DNA of 64,000 bases from Pelotomaculum schinkii (lineage in GTDB: Bacteria; Bacillota; Desulfotomaculia; Desulfotomaculales; Pelotomaculaceae): the NCBI RefSeq assembly GCF_004369205.1, contig NZ_QFGA01000002.1:620001-684000 (forward strand). Direction: 5' to 3'. Of this stretch, positions 1 to 5,463 are shown in pieces (within the stretch, counting starts at the first letter, position 1; each line of letters begins with the position of its first letter). A program made the position numbers and the translations under genes. The notes beneath the pieces are model-generated. The model made no database searches, was not told where the DNA came from, and saw only the letters and a list, made by a program, of their open reading frames with translations.

Positions 1-684
1 TCTTCCACCTGATATTGCTCCAGCAGCACAGAAGATACAGCTTCCGGGGCATCCCCTGCTCGTAATAATAGTCCCTGGCATCGGGTATTCTTCCATATCT
101 ATTGCAGTGCGGAGTGGAAAGGGTAACTGGTCTAATTCTTTAATATAGGGTCGGCCTGGATTTCTAACTATTTCTACATCTTTTCCAGTGTTCATTTTGT
201 ATGTTATTCCTTTAATCTCATTCAGCGAACCTCGCTGCTGAAGAAAATAATCAGCCAATTCTGCCATGGACAGTTCACCTTCGCCCCTGACGATAATGTC
301 AACTGCTTCGTGTTGCAATGTCTCTTCATCCATGAAAGTTACGTGTGGGCCACCTAGGACAGTAATCACATTCGGGTTCCACTCTTTAGCAGAAGAACAG
401 AATTCAAATACGGATACCGTTGCTTCAGAGAAGACAACTAACCCAACAATTTTAGGCTGTTCTTGTTCCAAAAAACCAATAAACTCACTCTTCTTTATCT
501 TTTTTCGCATTATATCTAATACTTTTACTTTATACCCCCGGGAAACAAGATAAGCGGCGATATAAAGTAAACCCAATGGAGGGCTACCCACTGGAGGTTT
601 TAACCAATCCTTCTCTGGGTGAACTTCCAATACTTCCGTATACCATGATGGTATTATAGGGTTTACTAAAACAACATCAGCCAC
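1..684 (-). CDS. Cobalamin-binding radical SAM protein, C-terminus beyond the window
   Basis: 228 residues are visible from a GTG at 684; the gene continues past base 1. Residues 1-150 look like the B12-binding Rossmann domain of this superfamily, with PPLGLLYIAAYL near 35-46, GGPHVTF at 111-117 and VRGEGE at 132-137. The radical SAM 4Fe-4S motif follows as Cys212, Cys216 and Cys219 (GCPGSCIFC), in the CxxxCxxC spacing. The stop of the PqqD-like gene (688-686) lies one base before this start, so the two are probably translationally coupled. Known members do C-methylations, ring contractions and other radical chemistry; in RiPP pathways they methylate peptides (TsrM, PoyB/PoyC). Which reaction occurs here is not visible. 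The pairing with an RRE gene and a small Cys peptide gene suggests peptide modification, which is inference. Assignment to the superfamily is firm. Confidence 0.9.
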   Translation of the reverse strand, partial: MADVVLVNPIIPSWYTEVLEVHPEKDWLKPPVGSPPLGLLYIAAYLVSRGYKVKVLDIMRKKIKKSEFIGFLEQEQPKIVGLVVFSEATVSVFEFCSSAKEWNPNVITVLGGPHVTFMDEETLQHEAVDIIVRGEGELSMAELADYFLQQRGSLNEIKGITYKMNTGKDVEIVRNPGRPYIKELDQLPFPLRTAIDMEEYPMPGTIITSRGCPGSCIFCAAGAISGGR

Positions 685-685
685 A

Positions 686-988
686 CTATTTTCCCTCCGA
701 TTTCCATATCCTTGCATCGAGAGTCTTCAAAACGATTAATTCTTGCTCGGCTAATTCTTCTAGTATGCTTATAACTTCATCTTCAGAAATCCCAGTCGTT
801 TCAATAATCCTTGATACAGTACTATACCCGTCCAGTTCCTTCCACACCGTTGAAGCATCCTTATCTAAAATCATCCGCCCTCGATCCTCCAAGCTTATTA
901 CTATTTGTCCCATTTTTTCATCTTCCATCCAATAAATAGGAATCATTATAGGGAAATAATGGTATATATCTTTTAACTCCTTATACAT
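686..988 (-). CDS. PqqD-like RiPP recognition element (RRE) protein
   Basis: 100 residues. The ATG at 988 is chosen because GAGGTGA lies 6 nt upstream; an ORF start at 1021 has no ribosome site. The middle of the protein reads like the PqqD winged-helix fold: a hydrophobic strand ending in RGRMILDKDASTVWKELDGY, then a helix-turn-helix part (STVSRIIETTGISEDEVISI) and a C-terminal helix ending LEELAEQELIVL. PqqD-like proteins bind RiPP leader peptides and present them to a radical SAM enzyme. Such an enzyme starts one base after this gene's stop, and a candidate substrate gene lies 183 bp upstream (1171-1323). The family call rests on pattern recognition, not on a profile search. Confidence 0.72.
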   Translation of the reverse strand: MYKELKDIYHYFPIMIPIYWMEDEKMGQIVISLEDRGRMILDKDASTVWKELDGYSTVSRIIETTGISEDEVISILEELAEQELIVLKTLDARIWKSEGK

Positions 989-1170
989 CGGATTCACCTC
1001 ACTATATAAACATTTAAACACTTAAGTAATGCTATTCATTGATAGATTTTAGTTTTCAGAAATGACTGAGGTAAAGGTAAGACTTATAAGGGAGTTATTC
1101 TAATCATTATGTCTCCAGTATTTTAGATTTTTCCAAAACCATATTTTCAAGGACATGCCATAAAATTATT

Positions 1171-1323
1171 CTAGCAAAGCGCGCCTGATTCTACACCTAT
1201 CATTGCACAGGCAGCTGTGGCAATAAAGAATTGTGCGCACCCGGCTTCGAATTCCAGTCTCTTATCGTCACGGTTACTGACCAACCACGGCGTTCTATAT
1301 ATTAATCGCTTTATCTTATTCAT
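1171..1323 (-). CDS. Putative RiPP precursor peptide, 50 aa
   Basis: A short ORF with a very strong ribosome site (AAGGAGGTG, 8 nt before the ATG at 1323) and a TAG at 1173-1171. The product starts MNKIKRLIYRTPWLVSNRDD and has a basic, charged first half (residues 1-28). The second half is uncharged apart from Glu45, with Cys29, Cys39 and a C-terminal Cys50; it includes CAQFFIATAACAMIG. An Ala-Gly pair (27-28) sits directly before Cys29, as at many leader/core junctions. Size, two-part composition, ribosome site and the downstream RRE and radical SAM genes together suggest a RiPP precursor. I do not recognise the sequence family. It could instead be an unmodified secreted or signalling peptide. 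Confidence 0.62.
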   Translation of the reverse strand: MNKIKRLIYRTPWLVSNRDDKRLEFEAGCAQFFIATAACAMIGVESGALC

Positions 1324-1384
1324 GAATTTACACCTCCTTCAAAGGGTATTTGCCTACCTTTACCTCATCGATATATGATTAAAT

Positions 1385-1443
1385 ATTAACAATACGTCGG
1401 ACGGTAATATCATCAGTTGTTAACCTGACTTTGTATTGTTAAT
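1385..1443 (-). promoter_or_regulatory. Dyad and direct repeats upstream of the peptide gene
   Basis: An 11-bp perfect inverted repeat, ATTAACAATAC at 1385-1395 and GTATTGTTAAT at 1433-1443, brackets the region 60-120 bp before the peptide start. A third TTGTTAA copy lies between the arms at 1417-1423, in direct orientation with the right arm (19 bp apart). This resembles a multi-site regulator binding region. No clear -35/-10 pair was found. The rest of the 410-bp gap from 1324 to 1733 is AT-rich and shows no gene. Confidence 0.4.
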
Positions 1444-1712
1444 TCTGTCGTCGATGCCCTGCTAATACTAAAATATAAAAGCATCTTATGAAAAAATGGT
1501 TTCAATGCACTTTGACATTATACGAAAATAGAGCATATCAGTATTTATTTAATTCCCGTATATCCAGTTGACCGTACCGTATAATCGAGCACTCACCGGA
1601 AGGAAGAACTACAGCTACTCATAATTATAATCAATTAATTTCATATATCTAGTACTTTTTCCTTAATAGCCAATTTATGGGCGTGAATAACCAAAAGGCA
1701 GGCCGCGAGAAC

Positions 1713-1746
1713 AAAAAAACACCCCTTCTCTCATTACAAAGGGGTG
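1713..1746 (-). terminator. Intrinsic terminator of the agr operon
   Basis: CACCCCTT (1720-1727) pairs with AAGGGGTG (1739-1746), and seven A residues at 1713-1719 become a U-tract on the minus strand. The stop codon of the response regulator (1736-1734) lies in the loop region, so the terminator overlaps the gene end. It should separate the agr operon from the peptide module. Confidence 0.85.
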
Positions 1747-2459
1747 AATCTATGCTTGTATTCTTTAAATTTGTACCGGCTCATCAAGGCCGTTTTACCA
1801 TACCCGGCAAAGCCGATCTCATACGATCTGTTGCTTACCTCTTCTATTCTGCTGACTTTGTTCAGGTTCACAATAAATGATCTGTGAACTCTGGAAAAAT
1901 TATCTCCCAGCTTTTCCTCCAACTCGCCCAGGGTTTGCTGCACCCTGTAAACGTTGCCTCCAGTGTGGATTAAACTGACTTTATCCCGCTTCTCAATAAA
2001 CAGGATCTCGCCCGGAGCTATCATGAATATTTCATTCCCGGCCTTGAACATCATTTTTTCGGGACTGCTCCCGGCGTCCTGCTTTCTTTTTACCTTGTCC
2101 GCAAGGCTGCTTATGACTTCGTTGACTCTGTCCTTTTTCACCGGCTTGAGAATATAGTCGTAGGGATGGACAGCGAAGGATTCAATTGCGTATTGGGCAT
2201 ATCCGGTTATAAAGACAAAATATGTTTCAGAACTGAAATCATATATATTCTTTGCGACCTGTATGCCGTTCAACTCTTCTTCAGGCGCCAGCTCTATGTC
2301 CAATAGGACAATGCTGGGCTTGTGTTGCCTGGCGAGACTGATTGCTTCTTGGCTGCTCGAAGTGTCGATTACCTGGTCAACGAAAGGATTTTCAGATACC
2401 AACTTCTTGAGAAACCGCCTGGTGTAATGCTCATCTTCGAGAAGTAAAATGCTTACCAT
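1734..2459 (-). CDS. AgrA-like LytTR response regulator
   Basis: 241 residues. Residues 1-125 are a receiver domain with acidic Glu8/Asp9, phospho-acceptor Asp54 in IVLLDIEL, and Lys near 105 (ILKPVKKD). Residues about 140-238 are a LytTR DNA-binding domain, with the characteristic FIEKRDKVSLIHTGGNVYRVQQTLGELEE stretch given here only by its start and end, and later FSRVHRSFIVNLNKVSRIEE. This is the AgrA/LytR architecture. It is the last gene of the agr-type operon, 5 bp after the AgrD stop. It probably receives phosphate from the GHKL kinase at 3232-4074 and binds the direct repeats at 4751-4790; both are inference from context. Confidence 0.92.
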   Translation of the reverse strand: MVSILLLEDEHYTRRFLKKLVSENPFVDQVIDTSSSQEAISLARQHKPSIVLLDIELAPEEELNGIQVAKNIYDFSSETYFVFITGYAQYAIESFAVHPYDYILKPVKKDRVNEVISSLADKVKRKQDAGSSPEKMMFKAGNEIFMIAPGEILFIEKRDKVSLIHTGGNVYRVQQTLGELEEKLGDNFSRVHRSFIVNLNKVSRIEEVSNRSYEIGFAGYGKTALMSRYKFKEYKHRFTPL

Positions 2460-2464
2460 CTATA

Positions 2465-2605
2465 TCAGTCCCCGTGTTTTAAGCCCTCAGGAATGTCGGG
2501 TTCATAAGTGATCCACCAGCAATTCGGGCTTACCCCGGTCTGGGCGACAAAAACCAGCACTGCGGCCAGGGTGTTGACCATGATCACTGCCAATCTGTTC
2601 AACAT
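2465..2605 (-). CDS. AgrD-like cyclic lactone autoinducer prepeptide, 46 aa
   Basis: Starts at ATG 2605 with a GAGGGGG ribosome site that overlaps the end of agrB; stop TGA at 2467-2465. Residues 1-21 are a hydrophobic amphipathic leader (MLNRLAVIMVNTLAAVLVFV). The core is TGVSPNCWWIT with Cys29, and the tail is acidic with the family's proline pattern (YEPDIPEGL). By alignment to staphylococcal AgrD tails I infer a thiolactone ring from Cys29 to Thr33. It lies directly after AgrB, its expected processing peptidase. Confident as an AgrD homologue; the exact mature peptide is a prediction. Confidence 0.9.
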   Translation of the reverse strand: MLNRLAVIMVNTLAAVLVFVAQTGVSPNCWWITYEPDIPEGLKHGD

Positions 2606-2610
2606 TGTTT

Positions 2611-3231
2611 TCACCCCCTCAAGAATATATTCGGGATATTATCAAGGGCTTTAACCGCCCTGTATCCCCAGGGTGTTATGAGAAATAAGCTGCCGAGGGT
2701 TCCCAGGACTGCTGCAAAAGCGTAAACGGTCAATTCATGTTGTATCAGTACCATTGTAACAGCAGAGCATACTGTTAAAACAAAGAGAGCTTTATTTCTT
2801 TGCCGCAGTCTCATTGACTCGTCTTTAATCTGTTTCTTTTCCGTACCTGCGGGAGCCCACCGCAAGATGATGTAAATGCCTGTCAATATGGTTAATGCCG
2901 AAATACCTGTTAACGCTGCAAGGCTTACATCTATAGTCATCGCCAGTTTACCAAGGCCCAAAAGCAAAGCGGTACCAACAATCAGGCATCCTGAATACGT
3001 ACTTAAATGAGTGCCTCCTCCGAAATAGCGCAGCGATGCAAAGGCTACCAGGCATACCATGGTTGTTTTAAAGGCACCGATAATGAATGATAACAATATT
3101 AAAAGCGTTAGCTGCACAAGTGTTCCAAGTATGATTTCCAATCCGTAAGCAAAAATATCTATTTTAGCCCGCTCAACCTGCAACTGCGTTCCCATGGTCA
3201 CGGCAATTCTCCGGGCAAACGCCTTCATCAT
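2611..3231 (-). CDS. AgrB-like membrane peptidase that processes the autoinducer
   Basis: 206 residues, multi-spanning membrane protein. The catalytic pair of AgrB is present: His75 and Cys82 in RYFGGGTHLSTYSGC, with the same 7-residue spacing as in Staphylococcus AgrB. AgrB cuts the C-terminal tail of AgrD and forms the thiolactone. The start ATG directly follows the kinase stop codon, and the C-terminus runs to the ribosome site of the AgrD gene, so the genes form one transcription unit. A second ATG immediately follows and is an equally good start. Confidence 0.93.
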   Translation of the reverse strand: MMKAFARRIAVTMGTQLQVERAKIDIFAYGLEIILGTLVQLTLLILLSFIIGAFKTTMVCLVAFASLRYFGGGTHLSTYSGCLIVGTALLLGLGKLAMTIDVSLAALTGISALTILTGIYIILRWAPAGTEKKQIKDESMRLRQRNKALFVLTVCSAVTMVLIQHELTVYAFAAVLGTLGSLFLITPWGYRAVKALDNIPNIFLRG

Positions 3232-4074
3232 TTATTCCCTGCCCCTGTCTGGAAGATGTACTATAAATGTTGTCCGTTCTCCTGATATGACATCGATTTT
3301 TCCTCCGTACTTGTCCACCAGTTTTTTAACCAAATACAAGCCATACCCGCGAGCTTTGGAACCCTTGGTAGTGTACCCTTCTTTAAATAGCCGCCGCCTT
3401 GCCTCCTCTGAGATTTTAGACCCGGTATTATACACATATATGACATAATTCGCATTTTCGTATTTTATTTCTACGGCCACCCGACGGTTGAAAGGGTCCT
3501 GGAGAGCGGCCTCCAAGGCATTATCCAGAAGGTTGCCCAGTATACTGCATAGGTCCCAGGGGGATATATTAATATTGGCAACATCACATTTTACGGCAAA
3601 AGCAAAGCCGATTTTCTTGGCCTCAGCTACTTTTTGTTTACTGTTGAAGAGTGCGGTAAGTGCTGGATGTCCTACGTGAATTAATCCTTCCGTATGTCTG
3701 TAACTCTCCGCTATTCCCTCAATATATTCCTGTGCTTGATCCGTTTCTTCCAGGTACAACATCGCCTGTATGGTCTGGATGTGCCTGCTGTGCTCGTGTT
3801 TTTGGGCCTGCGAAGCGCTCAGAATGTCCTCCACATGCAGGAGGTGCGTTTTCAAAAGGTTCAATTCTATTAATTTCCTGGTACCCTCTTCAAGTCTTTT
3901 GATTGAAAAAACGGCAAGAACACTCAAAGCTAAAACCACCAGGTTTACAAATGGCAGGAACCCCTTTAAATCGTCGATGCCATTGGCAAGGTATATTTGC
4001 TGATTAATCATAACAATAAACCATGCTTCGAGGAGTATGGTAGAAATGATTAGCAATCTACCATTTTTAAACAA
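3232..4074 (-). CDS. AgrC-like GHKL sensor histidine kinase
   Basis: About 280 residues. Only two membrane helices are seen at the N-terminus (near residues 5-25 and 40-58 from the TTG at 4083), followed by a coil and an H-box with several His (KHEHSRHIQTIQAML). Then come the N-box (ILGNLLDNALEAA) and G-box (GYGLYLVKKLVDKYGG) of the GHKL ATPase. AgrC normally has six or seven N-terminal helices; here the preceding gene encodes five more, so the sensor appears split. The TTG at 4083 overlaps the upstream stop but sits on the ribosome site itself; TTG at 4074 has AAGGA at 9 nt and is preferred. Partner of the LytTR regulator at 1734-2459. Confidence 0.88.
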   Translation of the reverse strand: MFKNGRLLIISTILLEAWFIVMINQQIYLANGIDDLKGFLPFVNLVVLALSVLAVFSIKRLEEGTRKLIELNLLKTHLLHVEDILSASQAQKHEHSRHIQTIQAMLYLEETDQAQEYIEGIAESYRHTEGLIHVGHPALTALFNSKQKVAEAKKIGFAFAVKCDVANINISPWDLCSILGNLLDNALEAALQDPFNRRVAVEIKYENANYVIYVYNTGSKISEEARRRLFKEGYTTKGSKARGYGLYLVKKLVDKYGGKIDVISGERTTFIVHLPDRGRE

Positions 4075-4079
4075 TGCAA

Positions 4080-4559
4080 TCAATCCTTATTCAGTCTCAA
4101 ATCGAAGAGCGCATAATTGCGTTTCTTCGCTAGAAGATAAACAACCGCCATAATGGTACCTGAAGGCAGGAAGTATAATACGTTCAACCAGGGCTCCGAT
4201 GCCAGGCTATCTGTAGTGGCAGCTGTTATCTTGAGCAGTACAGGCACTAACACTCCCTCCAGGACTCCGAGAATCAACGATCCGGTAAGAATTGAAATAA
4301 AGCAGTGCCACAGATTTGTTCCTGTAACAACAGTTGCTAAAAGTGTTGAGGACACCGCAAGTATTATTGTGTGGACGCCAAACGGGAGGGGCAATCCTCG
4401 TGCAAAGATCGACACAACACCAACTGCCAGGGACAACAATAATGCTTTTGAACAGCTTACGGGCAGGTTGAAAAGCCGAAACCCGATTTTAATGATGAGA
4501 AATGTTTGCGGGATTGAAAGCAGTAGAACGATATACCAGGGCAACGGTGTCGGATGCAT
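4080..4559 (-). CDS. Five-TM membrane protein, possible detached sensor half of AgrC
   Basis: 159 residues from ATG 4559, which has GAGGGGG about 6 nt upstream; an ORF extension to 4691 lacks a ribosome site and is unlike the rest of the protein. About five hydrophobic segments are visible (for example WYIVLLLSIPQTFLII and ALLLSLAVGVVSIFA), with a basic C-terminal end. There is no kinase domain. The gene overlaps the kinase start region by a few bases and is first in the operon. Its topology resembles the receptor part of AgrC. I infer that it forms the autoinducer receptor together with the two-helix kinase; a helper or immunity role is also possible. Confidence 0.7.
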   Translation of the reverse strand: MHPTPLPWYIVLLLSIPQTFLIIKIGFRLFNLPVSCSKALLLSLAVGVVSIFARGLPLPFGVHTIILAVSSTLLATVVTGTNLWHCFISILTGSLILGVLEGVLVPVLLKITAATTDSLASEPWLNVLYFLPSGTIMAVVYLLAKKRNYALFDLRLNKD

Positions 4560-4746: not shown

Positions 4747-4790
4747 GCGCAAATAACCCAATTCTGGGCTTAAATAACCAAACTTGGGTT
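4747..4790 (-). promoter_or_regulatory. Tandem direct repeats, likely LytTR operator of the agr operon
   Basis: Two direct repeats, AAATAACCCAATTCTGGGCT (4751-4770) and AAATAACCAAACTTGGGTT (4772-4790), are offset by 21 bp, about two helical turns. Each also has internal dyad symmetry (AACC...GGGT). AgrA-type LytTR regulators bind paired repeats with 21-22 bp phasing next to a -35 element. Here a TTGCGC (minus strand, 4752-4747) abuts the proximal repeat, followed 17 bp on by a weak TAAGTA. The location is about 190 bp before the first agr gene. Function is inferred. Confidence 0.6.
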
Positions 4791-4949
4791 AGAAGTGAAT
4801 GAAACGGATGATTGCCATGCAAAAAACATTGGCGGTTTTGCTACATCAATCTTTCTACGCAAAAATAAAAAATTGCAGCTGATTCACTCAGACAATTCAT
4901 TGCCACGTACAATTTTTTGTTTCGATAATAATTAAATCCTTTATGGGCA

Positions 4950-4961
4950 TGATACTATAAT
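4950..4961 (+). promoter_or_regulatory. Plus-strand promoter for the structured RNA
   Basis: A perfect -10 TATAAT at 4956-4961, preceded by TGATAC. The -35 region (about 4933-4938, TAAATC) is poor, so the promoter may depend on the -10 region or on an activator. Transcription would start near 4968, where the hairpin-rich sequence begins. Confidence 0.55.
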
Positions 4962-4967
4962 GGCCGA

Positions 4968-5377
4968 GCCAAGAGCGTTACAGGGTCAAACGGCTCTGTA
5001 GGCCAAAGGTCGGTATCGGGTCATAATGGTTCGATATCGGCCGGAGGGAAGATCGGTGGATGTTCCGGCAGGTTCTGCAGCAGTCCAAAACGATTGCTGC
5101 AGGGTCGTAAGGGATATTCATCGGTCGAGCTAAGATTACCATGGGTGTCGGCATGCTTTTACTTCGGTACAGCAAGAGGTTTACAGCAGTCGAAAGATTG
5201 CTGTGGGCTTCCTAGGCATGCATGGTAGTCGAGCAAAGGTCATTACGGGTTCCGTAATGGTCTATGGCAGTCGAAAGATTGTCATGGGCTATGCAGGGAT
5301 GCGTAGTGGCTGTAGCGTAGGTCATTGCGGGCTCTTAACATAGAAACCTTCCTCTTAGTGAGGAAGGTTTCTTGTTT
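4968..5377 (+). ncRNA. Candidate structured non-coding RNA, about 410 nt
   Basis: No protein-coding signal. At least six strong local helices follow one another: 4979-4983 with 4996-5000; an 11-bp helix 5008-5018 with 5032-5042; an 11-bp helix 5075-5085 with 5092-5102; 5183-5191 with 5196-5204; 5241-5248 with 5252-5259; 5264-5272 with 5277-5285. Two are capped by GAAA tetraloops, and three share the core GCAGTC-loop-GATTG while their outer pairs differ yet still pair (CAGCA/TGCTG against TGGCA/TGTCA). A longer-range pairing TACCATG (5137-5143) with CATGGTA (5221-5227) encloses one of them. A promoter precedes it and an intrinsic terminator ends it. Neighbouring genes on both sides are on the minus strand, so this is a separate unit and not a leader. 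I cannot assign it to a known RNA family. Confidence 0.65.
5343..5377 (+). terminator. Intrinsic terminator of the structured RNA
   Basis: A perfect 12-bp stem, GAAACCTTCCTC (5343-5354) with GAGGAAGGTTTC (5360-5371), a 5-nt loop, then TTGTTT. The T-rich tail is on the plus-strand side, fitting the end of the RNA that starts near 4968. It may also help stop ileS transcripts coming from the right. Confidence 0.85.
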
Positions 5378-5463
5378 CCAAAACATAAAGCCTTAGTTGC
5401 CTTACCGTATCTTCAACAAAAAAATTGCATCATAATTTATTTTCATGGTTTTTTTTAATATGA

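Follow-up and report, generated by a model that had tools for sequence, protein, structure and literature searches.

The window, a 64,000-nucleotide stretch of the Pelotomaculum schinkii genome, carries at its left end what is probably a RiPP gene cluster gained by horizontal transfer and controlled by agr quorum sensing. A complete agr system, with AgrB, an AgrD-like peptide, a histidine kinase and a LytTR regulator in one operon, lies upstream of a short Cys-containing peptide gene, and sequences resembling tandem regulator sites are present both at agr's own promoter and at an output promoter behind agrA. The order on the minus strand is agr-type operon (4691-1734), peptide (1323-1171), PqqD-like protein (988-686) and B12-radical SAM enzyme (from 684 onward). 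The first-pass annotation had described the last three genes as a small RiPP-like module; the agr system and the shared promoter site, which it missed, are the more interesting part. The features of the window are as follows.

1..684, minus strand: N-terminal part of a B12-binding radical SAM enzyme, with a GTG start at 684
686..988, minus strand: putative standalone PqqD-like RRE protein, 100 aa (the ORF could start at 1021)
1171..1323, minus strand: putative precursor peptide MNKIKRLIYRTPWLVSNRDDKRLEFEAGCAQFFIATAACAMIGVESGALC, with leader motif YxxPxL at residues 9-14 and Cys29, 39 and 50
1624..1629, minus strand: predicted -10 element TATAAT of the output promoter, invariant ATTATAATT across three loci
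1665..1692, minus strand: predicted output-promoter site of the tandem LytTR/AgrA type, GGTTATT-N14-GGCTATT, between agrA and the peptide
1734..2459, minus strand: AgrA-like LytTR response regulator (PF04397 1.4e-22, PF00072 3.6e-14)
2465..2614, minus strand: AgrD-like signal precursor (containing GVSPNCWWITYEPDIPEGL), between agrB and agrA
2611..3231, minus strand: AgrB (PF04647 1.3e-32)
3232..4083, minus strand: agr sensor histidine kinase (PF02518 1.6e-18)
4080..4559, minus strand: membrane protein before the kinase, no Pfam family
4752..4779, minus strand: predicted tandem site of the same type in the agr operon promoter, conserved in the relatives' loci L083 and L045 described below

The membrane protein before the kinase is likely its sensor half or partner; relatives align from residue 45, and the real start is probably the ATG at 4559. 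The two sites share the 28-base pattern GGYTATT-N14-GGYTATT, a 21-bp direct repeat with CCCA between the boxes. Exact matches occur twice in the 64 kb, both on the minus strand, with 0.41 expected even when one mismatch is allowed; this consensus was written after both sites had been seen, and the independent test is its conservation in other genomes. No further tandem GGYTATT site was found in 168 kb of sequence from the same genome. The centre of the output site lies ~61 bp before the inferred transcription start near 1617, and a 5' leader of ~300 nt, in which no Rfam element was detected, separates that start from the peptide. AgrA sites at P2 and P3 of S. aureus are centred at about -60 (PMC4227749), and we counted the matching geometry in favor of agr control.

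Conservation of the site was seen in G013, a genome of the same family but another genus, which has two agr systems 59-71% identical to that of the window. Downstream of agrA in both loci, the tandem site is kept with 1-2 box bases changed, followed by the invariant ATTATAATT, and the position of the site relative to TATAAT is conserved in all three loci despite divergence of the flanking sequence. In L083, one of the two G013 loci, identity to the window is 61% for AgrB, 70% for AgrD, 68% for AgrA and 71% for the kinase, and the AgrD signal core differs from the window's. The gene after the output promoter in L083 encodes a 760-aa CXXX-repeat radical SAM peptide maturase (TIGR04115 543 bits, TIGR04119 247 bits, both above the NCBIfam cut-offs). 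Since a related agr system and the same promoter here precede another maturase, the agr module and output promoter appear to be kept while the peptide pathway differs, and the agr cassette can apparently be combined with more than one kind of RiPP cargo. In another family of the order, a B12-radical SAM gene lies ~2 kb from a complete agr system on the same strand (L131; G047:C1, 7573-14317).

The alternative that best survives is that the RiPP cluster merely sits beside an unrelated agr system, with island and promoter-like sequence shared by descent and not by regulation. The family has many agr systems, most of those inspected having no adjacent peptide maturase, and the peptide lies ~300 nt from the shared site, with other promoter-like sequences closer to it. 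Such chance adjacency is nevertheless unlikely, given the restriction of the tandem site to these two places in the 64 kb, the spacing to TATAAT conserved between diverging flanks, and the occurrence of the same promoter before another RiPP maturase in L083.

The agr and RiPP genes probably entered the genome together, judging from comparison with the nearest congener (G002), from which the block is absent; it is, on this evidence, a foreign island. In G002, traB (97% identical as protein) comes within ~400 bp after ileS (94% identical as DNA), and the window genome has an extra 12.3 kb between the two, from L002 ~8605 to window ~4926 (L002 being the host-genome sequence read left of the window, where window position equals L002 position minus 16000). 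Two IS21-like istA fragments, identified by eye, lie at the left end of the island, and searches of plasmids with the M50 and SPASM proteins described below gave no matches. Beside the right edge, window 4926-5385 belongs to a non-coding repeat family of which several copies are dispersed in this genome and its relatives. Two agr remnants were found elsewhere in G002, one (L045, 10556-11268) with the agr promoter and part of the membrane gene, the other (L046, 10542-10683) with the end of agrA and the beginning of the output promoter, running into a contig edge. At the thresholds used, the peptide, the RRE and the agr regulator were not found in other relatives save for the agr genes of G013, which were reached through AgrB, the regulator search having covered relatives other than G013.

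The peptide gene at 1171-1323 is as first annotated, a 50-aa ORF with a strong ribosome site (AGGAGGTG) before its ATG. Counting of residues confirmed Cys29, Cys39 and Cys50 and the division into a charged N-terminal and a near-uncharged C-terminal half: residues 1-26 contain seven K/R and four D/E, and residues 27-50 a single charge. The N-terminal half contains Y9-R-T-P12-W-L14, which fits the motif [Y/W]xxPx[L/V/I/A/F/Y] recognized by most discrete lasso RREs and also carried by PQQ precursors (PMC13381572). A motif of this type arises by chance at a frequency of ~2% (1.6% of shuffles of the peptide and 2.3% of 50-aa stretches from window ORFs). No relative of the peptide was found anywhere searched, and the ORF has no codon-position signal; a search at a loose E-value returned scattered weak matches only, mostly within longer unrelated frames. 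Because no relative was detected, its translation, its modification and its role as precursor are all putative. The gene is flanked by a perfect 13-base inverted repeat (TGAGGTAAAGGTA / TACCTTTACCTCA; window 1067-1079 and 1355-1367), and an 11-base inverted repeat (ATTAACAATAC / GTATTGTTAAT; window 1384-1394 and 1433-1443) lies within its long 5' leader. Both ATTAACAATAC and TGAGGTAAAGGTA were considered as regulator sites and dropped, having no counterpart before the agr operon.

The PqqD-like ORF at 686-988, with the B12-radical SAM gene starting one base later at 684, was likewise confirmed, and its assignment as an RRE held in part: the protein matched PF05402 over nearly its full length (E=0.0024), but at 18.6 bits fell below the Pfam cut-off of 23.4. 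It gave an in-register profile match to four PqqD domains (p=0.011, against 0.68 for the peptide as control) and a weak in-register PDB match to PqqD 5sxy. A single-sequence structure model, poor in quality (pLDDT 44.6), had the expected order of elements, strand-strand-strand-helix-helix-helix; a PDB fold search with a model of this quality was meaningless and was discarded. The protein's own sequence is thus suggestive of an RRE. The call is strengthened by a locus of the congener (L118, contig 123 of G002), in which the same position is held by clear PqqD proteins: two B12-radical SAM enzymes are each directly preceded by one (PF05402 1.6e-16 and 2.8e-6).

The B12-radical SAM gene runs past the window edge to L002:15281 (window -719). 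The pathway is therefore cut at the left edge, which is downstream on the minus strand, and not at the right end as the first-pass annotation had stated, and more genes lie beyond.

L002:13710-15155: 481-aa enzyme with PqqD, Radical_SAM and SPASM domains, downstream of the B12-radical SAM gene
L002:11750-12646: 298-aa M50-type membrane protein with a HEFGH motif and a weak M50 match
L002:10405-11763: 452-aa Radical_SAM-SPASM enzyme, the second SPASM enzyme

The complete B12-radical SAM enzyme has 467 aa, with PF02310 (7.9e-22) and PF04055 (6.2e-22) both above cut-off, and the reported CxxxCxxC motif is present as CPGSCIFC; both domains and the motif by which a B12-radical SAM enzyme is defined are thus present. 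Its nearest families are HpnJ, BchE and ApyD, and it falls under every equivalog cut-off (for ApyD, 150.6 vs 750). The top-scoring family for the 481-aa enzyme is the sactipeptide maturase StsB (155 vs a cut-off of 625), and the SPASM enzymes also score with mycofactocin and PqqE maturases; none of the known sactisynthase families (StsB, AlbA and RumMC) was above cut-off for the cluster enzymes. The tail of the M50-type protein resembles the standalone RRE, their alignment beating 499 of 500 shuffles. Left of base 1, where the first-pass annotation had suggested looking for peptidase or transporter genes, this protein is the putative peptidase, and the island contains no transporter genes. Neither a lasso cyclase nor a B2 peptidase was found among all ORFs of at least 90 aa in L002:6000-18000, read by eye, and reading of the island's ORFs by eye revealed no PEARL (LanB-like) or MNIO gene. 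Between the 481-aa enzyme and the protease is a stretch of 1.06 kb without convincing genes, which may be a decayed insertion. The four genes ahead of it are thereby set apart from those of the protease and second SPASM enzyme, and some of the cluster's genes may be nonfunctional or transcribed on their own. Behind the second SPASM enzyme, L002:10024-10146 could encode a hydrophobic membrane peptide of 37-40 aa with a ribosome site, perhaps an immunity protein or a second product. Taken together, a short putative precursor lies beside peptide-modifying enzymes and a putative RRE, the arrangement by which a RiPP cluster is recognized.

Relatives of the enzymes were found in comparable settings. 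The closest relative of the B12-radical SAM enzyme that was found, 40% identical, is an L118 enzyme, and L118 also holds two SPASM enzymes, a HEWFH membrane protein and an ABC transporter. The three-gene order sought in relatives was recovered in part, as RRE-B12-radical SAM pairs at another locus of G002, but without the peptide; these pairs, together with the leader motif and the further cluster genes, support the original reading as a RiPP-like module. In G068, a distant genome of the same phylum, locus L098 encodes a PqqD-radical SAM-SPASM enzyme, a 96-aa protein whose identity as an RRE was not confirmed, a B12-radical SAM enzyme, a C39 peptidase and ABC transporters. In a tree of 29 B12-radical SAM enzymes, that of the window pairs with that of G068 at 97/91, the two L118 enzymes being nearest to this pair with weak support. 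A contig scan with the B12 enzyme returned Nitrospirota relatives only, at 30-35%, and in these no counterparts were found for the other proteins of the module. Ahead of the PqqD-radical SAM gene in G068 is an 80-aa hydrophobic ORF with a ribosome site (L098 10381-10623), a candidate precursor unrelated to the window peptide. L121 (G002:C206, 5502-12948), with a 125-aa peptide containing DYCCVDASVGSSVAGPVSSVASSVS, a radical SAM enzyme, a B12-radical SAM enzyme and three more radical SAM ORFs, is possibly another RiPP cluster of G002.

Given the C-terminal Cys and the M50 protease, a pearlin-like single-residue product is possible. On this alternative, the product would be a small molecule or cofactor built at the C-terminus of a scaffold peptide, as for pearlins or PQQ/mycofactocin, with Cys50 modified and then cut off by the M50 protease. 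The M50 proteases TglG and TmoG cut modified residues off the C-terminus of scaffold peptides (PMC10885120), the YxxP motif is common to PQQ leaders (PMC13381572), and the scores of the SPASM enzymes with mycofactocin and PqqE maturases point the same way. Against these stand the absence of any PEARL or MNIO gene from the ORFs read, the three spaced Cys in an uncharged core, which suggest that the whole core is modified, and the service of M50 proteases in epipeptide pathways too; we consider a scaffold peptide improbable. Just as improbable, despite the lack of relatives and of codon-position signal and despite the IS21-like fragments at one island edge and the gene-free gap inside the cluster, is that the 50-aa ORF is not the substrate, the enzymes acting on another peptide or the cluster being decayed and inactive, because the ORF has a strong ribosome site and a leader motif of ~2% chance frequency, is the first gene after a conserved output promoter, and is accompanied by enzymes that are all intact long ORFs with catalytic motifs.

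The most probable explanation is an agr-controlled RiPP cluster, which would operate as follows. AgrB would make a cyclic signal from AgrD, and the kinase and LytTR regulator would sense it, the regulator presumably binding the paired GGYTATT boxes both at the agr operon promoter and at the output promoter just behind agrA. The latter would drive transcription of the 50-aa precursor gene together with those of the RRE and the modifying enzymes. The standalone RRE would hold the YxxPxL leader so that the B12-radical SAM enzyme could act on the uncharged Cys core (about residues 26-50), probably by C-methylation; the PqqD-fused and second SPASM enzymes would probably add radical cross-links, thioethers or others, in which Cys29/39/50 take part. 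The M50-type protease with its RRE-like tail would probably remove the leader and release the product, for which a role as kin-directed antimicrobial or as second signal is the most likely. C-methylation combined with radical cross-links at Cys is our tentative assignment of the chemistry.

Several known systems share parts of this arrangement. In Clostridium acetobutylicum, a peptide-modifying-type gene, the LanM-like CA_C0082, lies directly downstream of the agr operon and is agr-controlled (PMC10301443); it reportedly has no catalytic residues or precursor, whereas the window cluster has a putative precursor, an RRE and three radical SAM enzymes. Streptococcal RaS-RiPPs under Rgg/SHP (PMC13361665) are likewise radical SAM RiPPs under peptide quorum sensing, but differ in that signaling in the window is of the agr/LytTR type and B12-radical SAM and M50 enzymes are added. 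A B12-radical SAM enzyme and an RRE also occur together in the RiPP clusters of ApyD, which C-methylates Tyr, and PbsB, which cross-links aromatic rings (PMC11117315, PMC12257519); in the window cluster no MNIO, P450 or arginase was seen, and the RRE is standalone. With sactipeptides (thuricin CD, streptosactin/StsB) the window cluster has in common SPASM enzymes, one of its own carrying an N-terminal PqqD domain, and a Cys-containing uncharged core, but its first SPASM enzyme scores far under the StsB cut-off. Neither a C-terminal Cys nor a B12-radical SAM enzyme is typical of sactipeptides. Lasso peptides and PQQ share the YxxPxL leader motif and a standalone PqqD-like protein, but the window cluster is without lasso cyclase, B2 peptidase or PQQ genes. 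The epipeptide EpeX is also a radical SAM RiPP with an M50 membrane protease, and pearlins likewise combine a C-terminal Cys with an M50 protease; the enzyme sets are otherwise different, and the window protease has an RRE-like tail.

The kind of cluster is thus known, and its composition and agr link look new in the literature searched, which excludes most subscription papers. The enzyme set, consisting of a standalone RRE, a B12-radical SAM enzyme, two SPASM enzymes and an RRE-tailed M50 protease, was matched to no described RiPP class, and a shared regulator site appears to tie a radical SAM RiPP pathway to an agr switch. Possibly, radical SAM RiPP pathways that differ between hosts are inserted behind the conserved output promoter of a mobile agr cassette, which would then be a general quorum-to-RiPP plug-in of Peptococcaceae-like bacteria, here yielding a RiPP of a new structural class. 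A tandem GGYTATT site behind agrA provides a rule for finding more such loci and, because of the tie to the agr switch, cryptic RiPPs of anaerobes might be induced with a short synthetic cyclic peptide.
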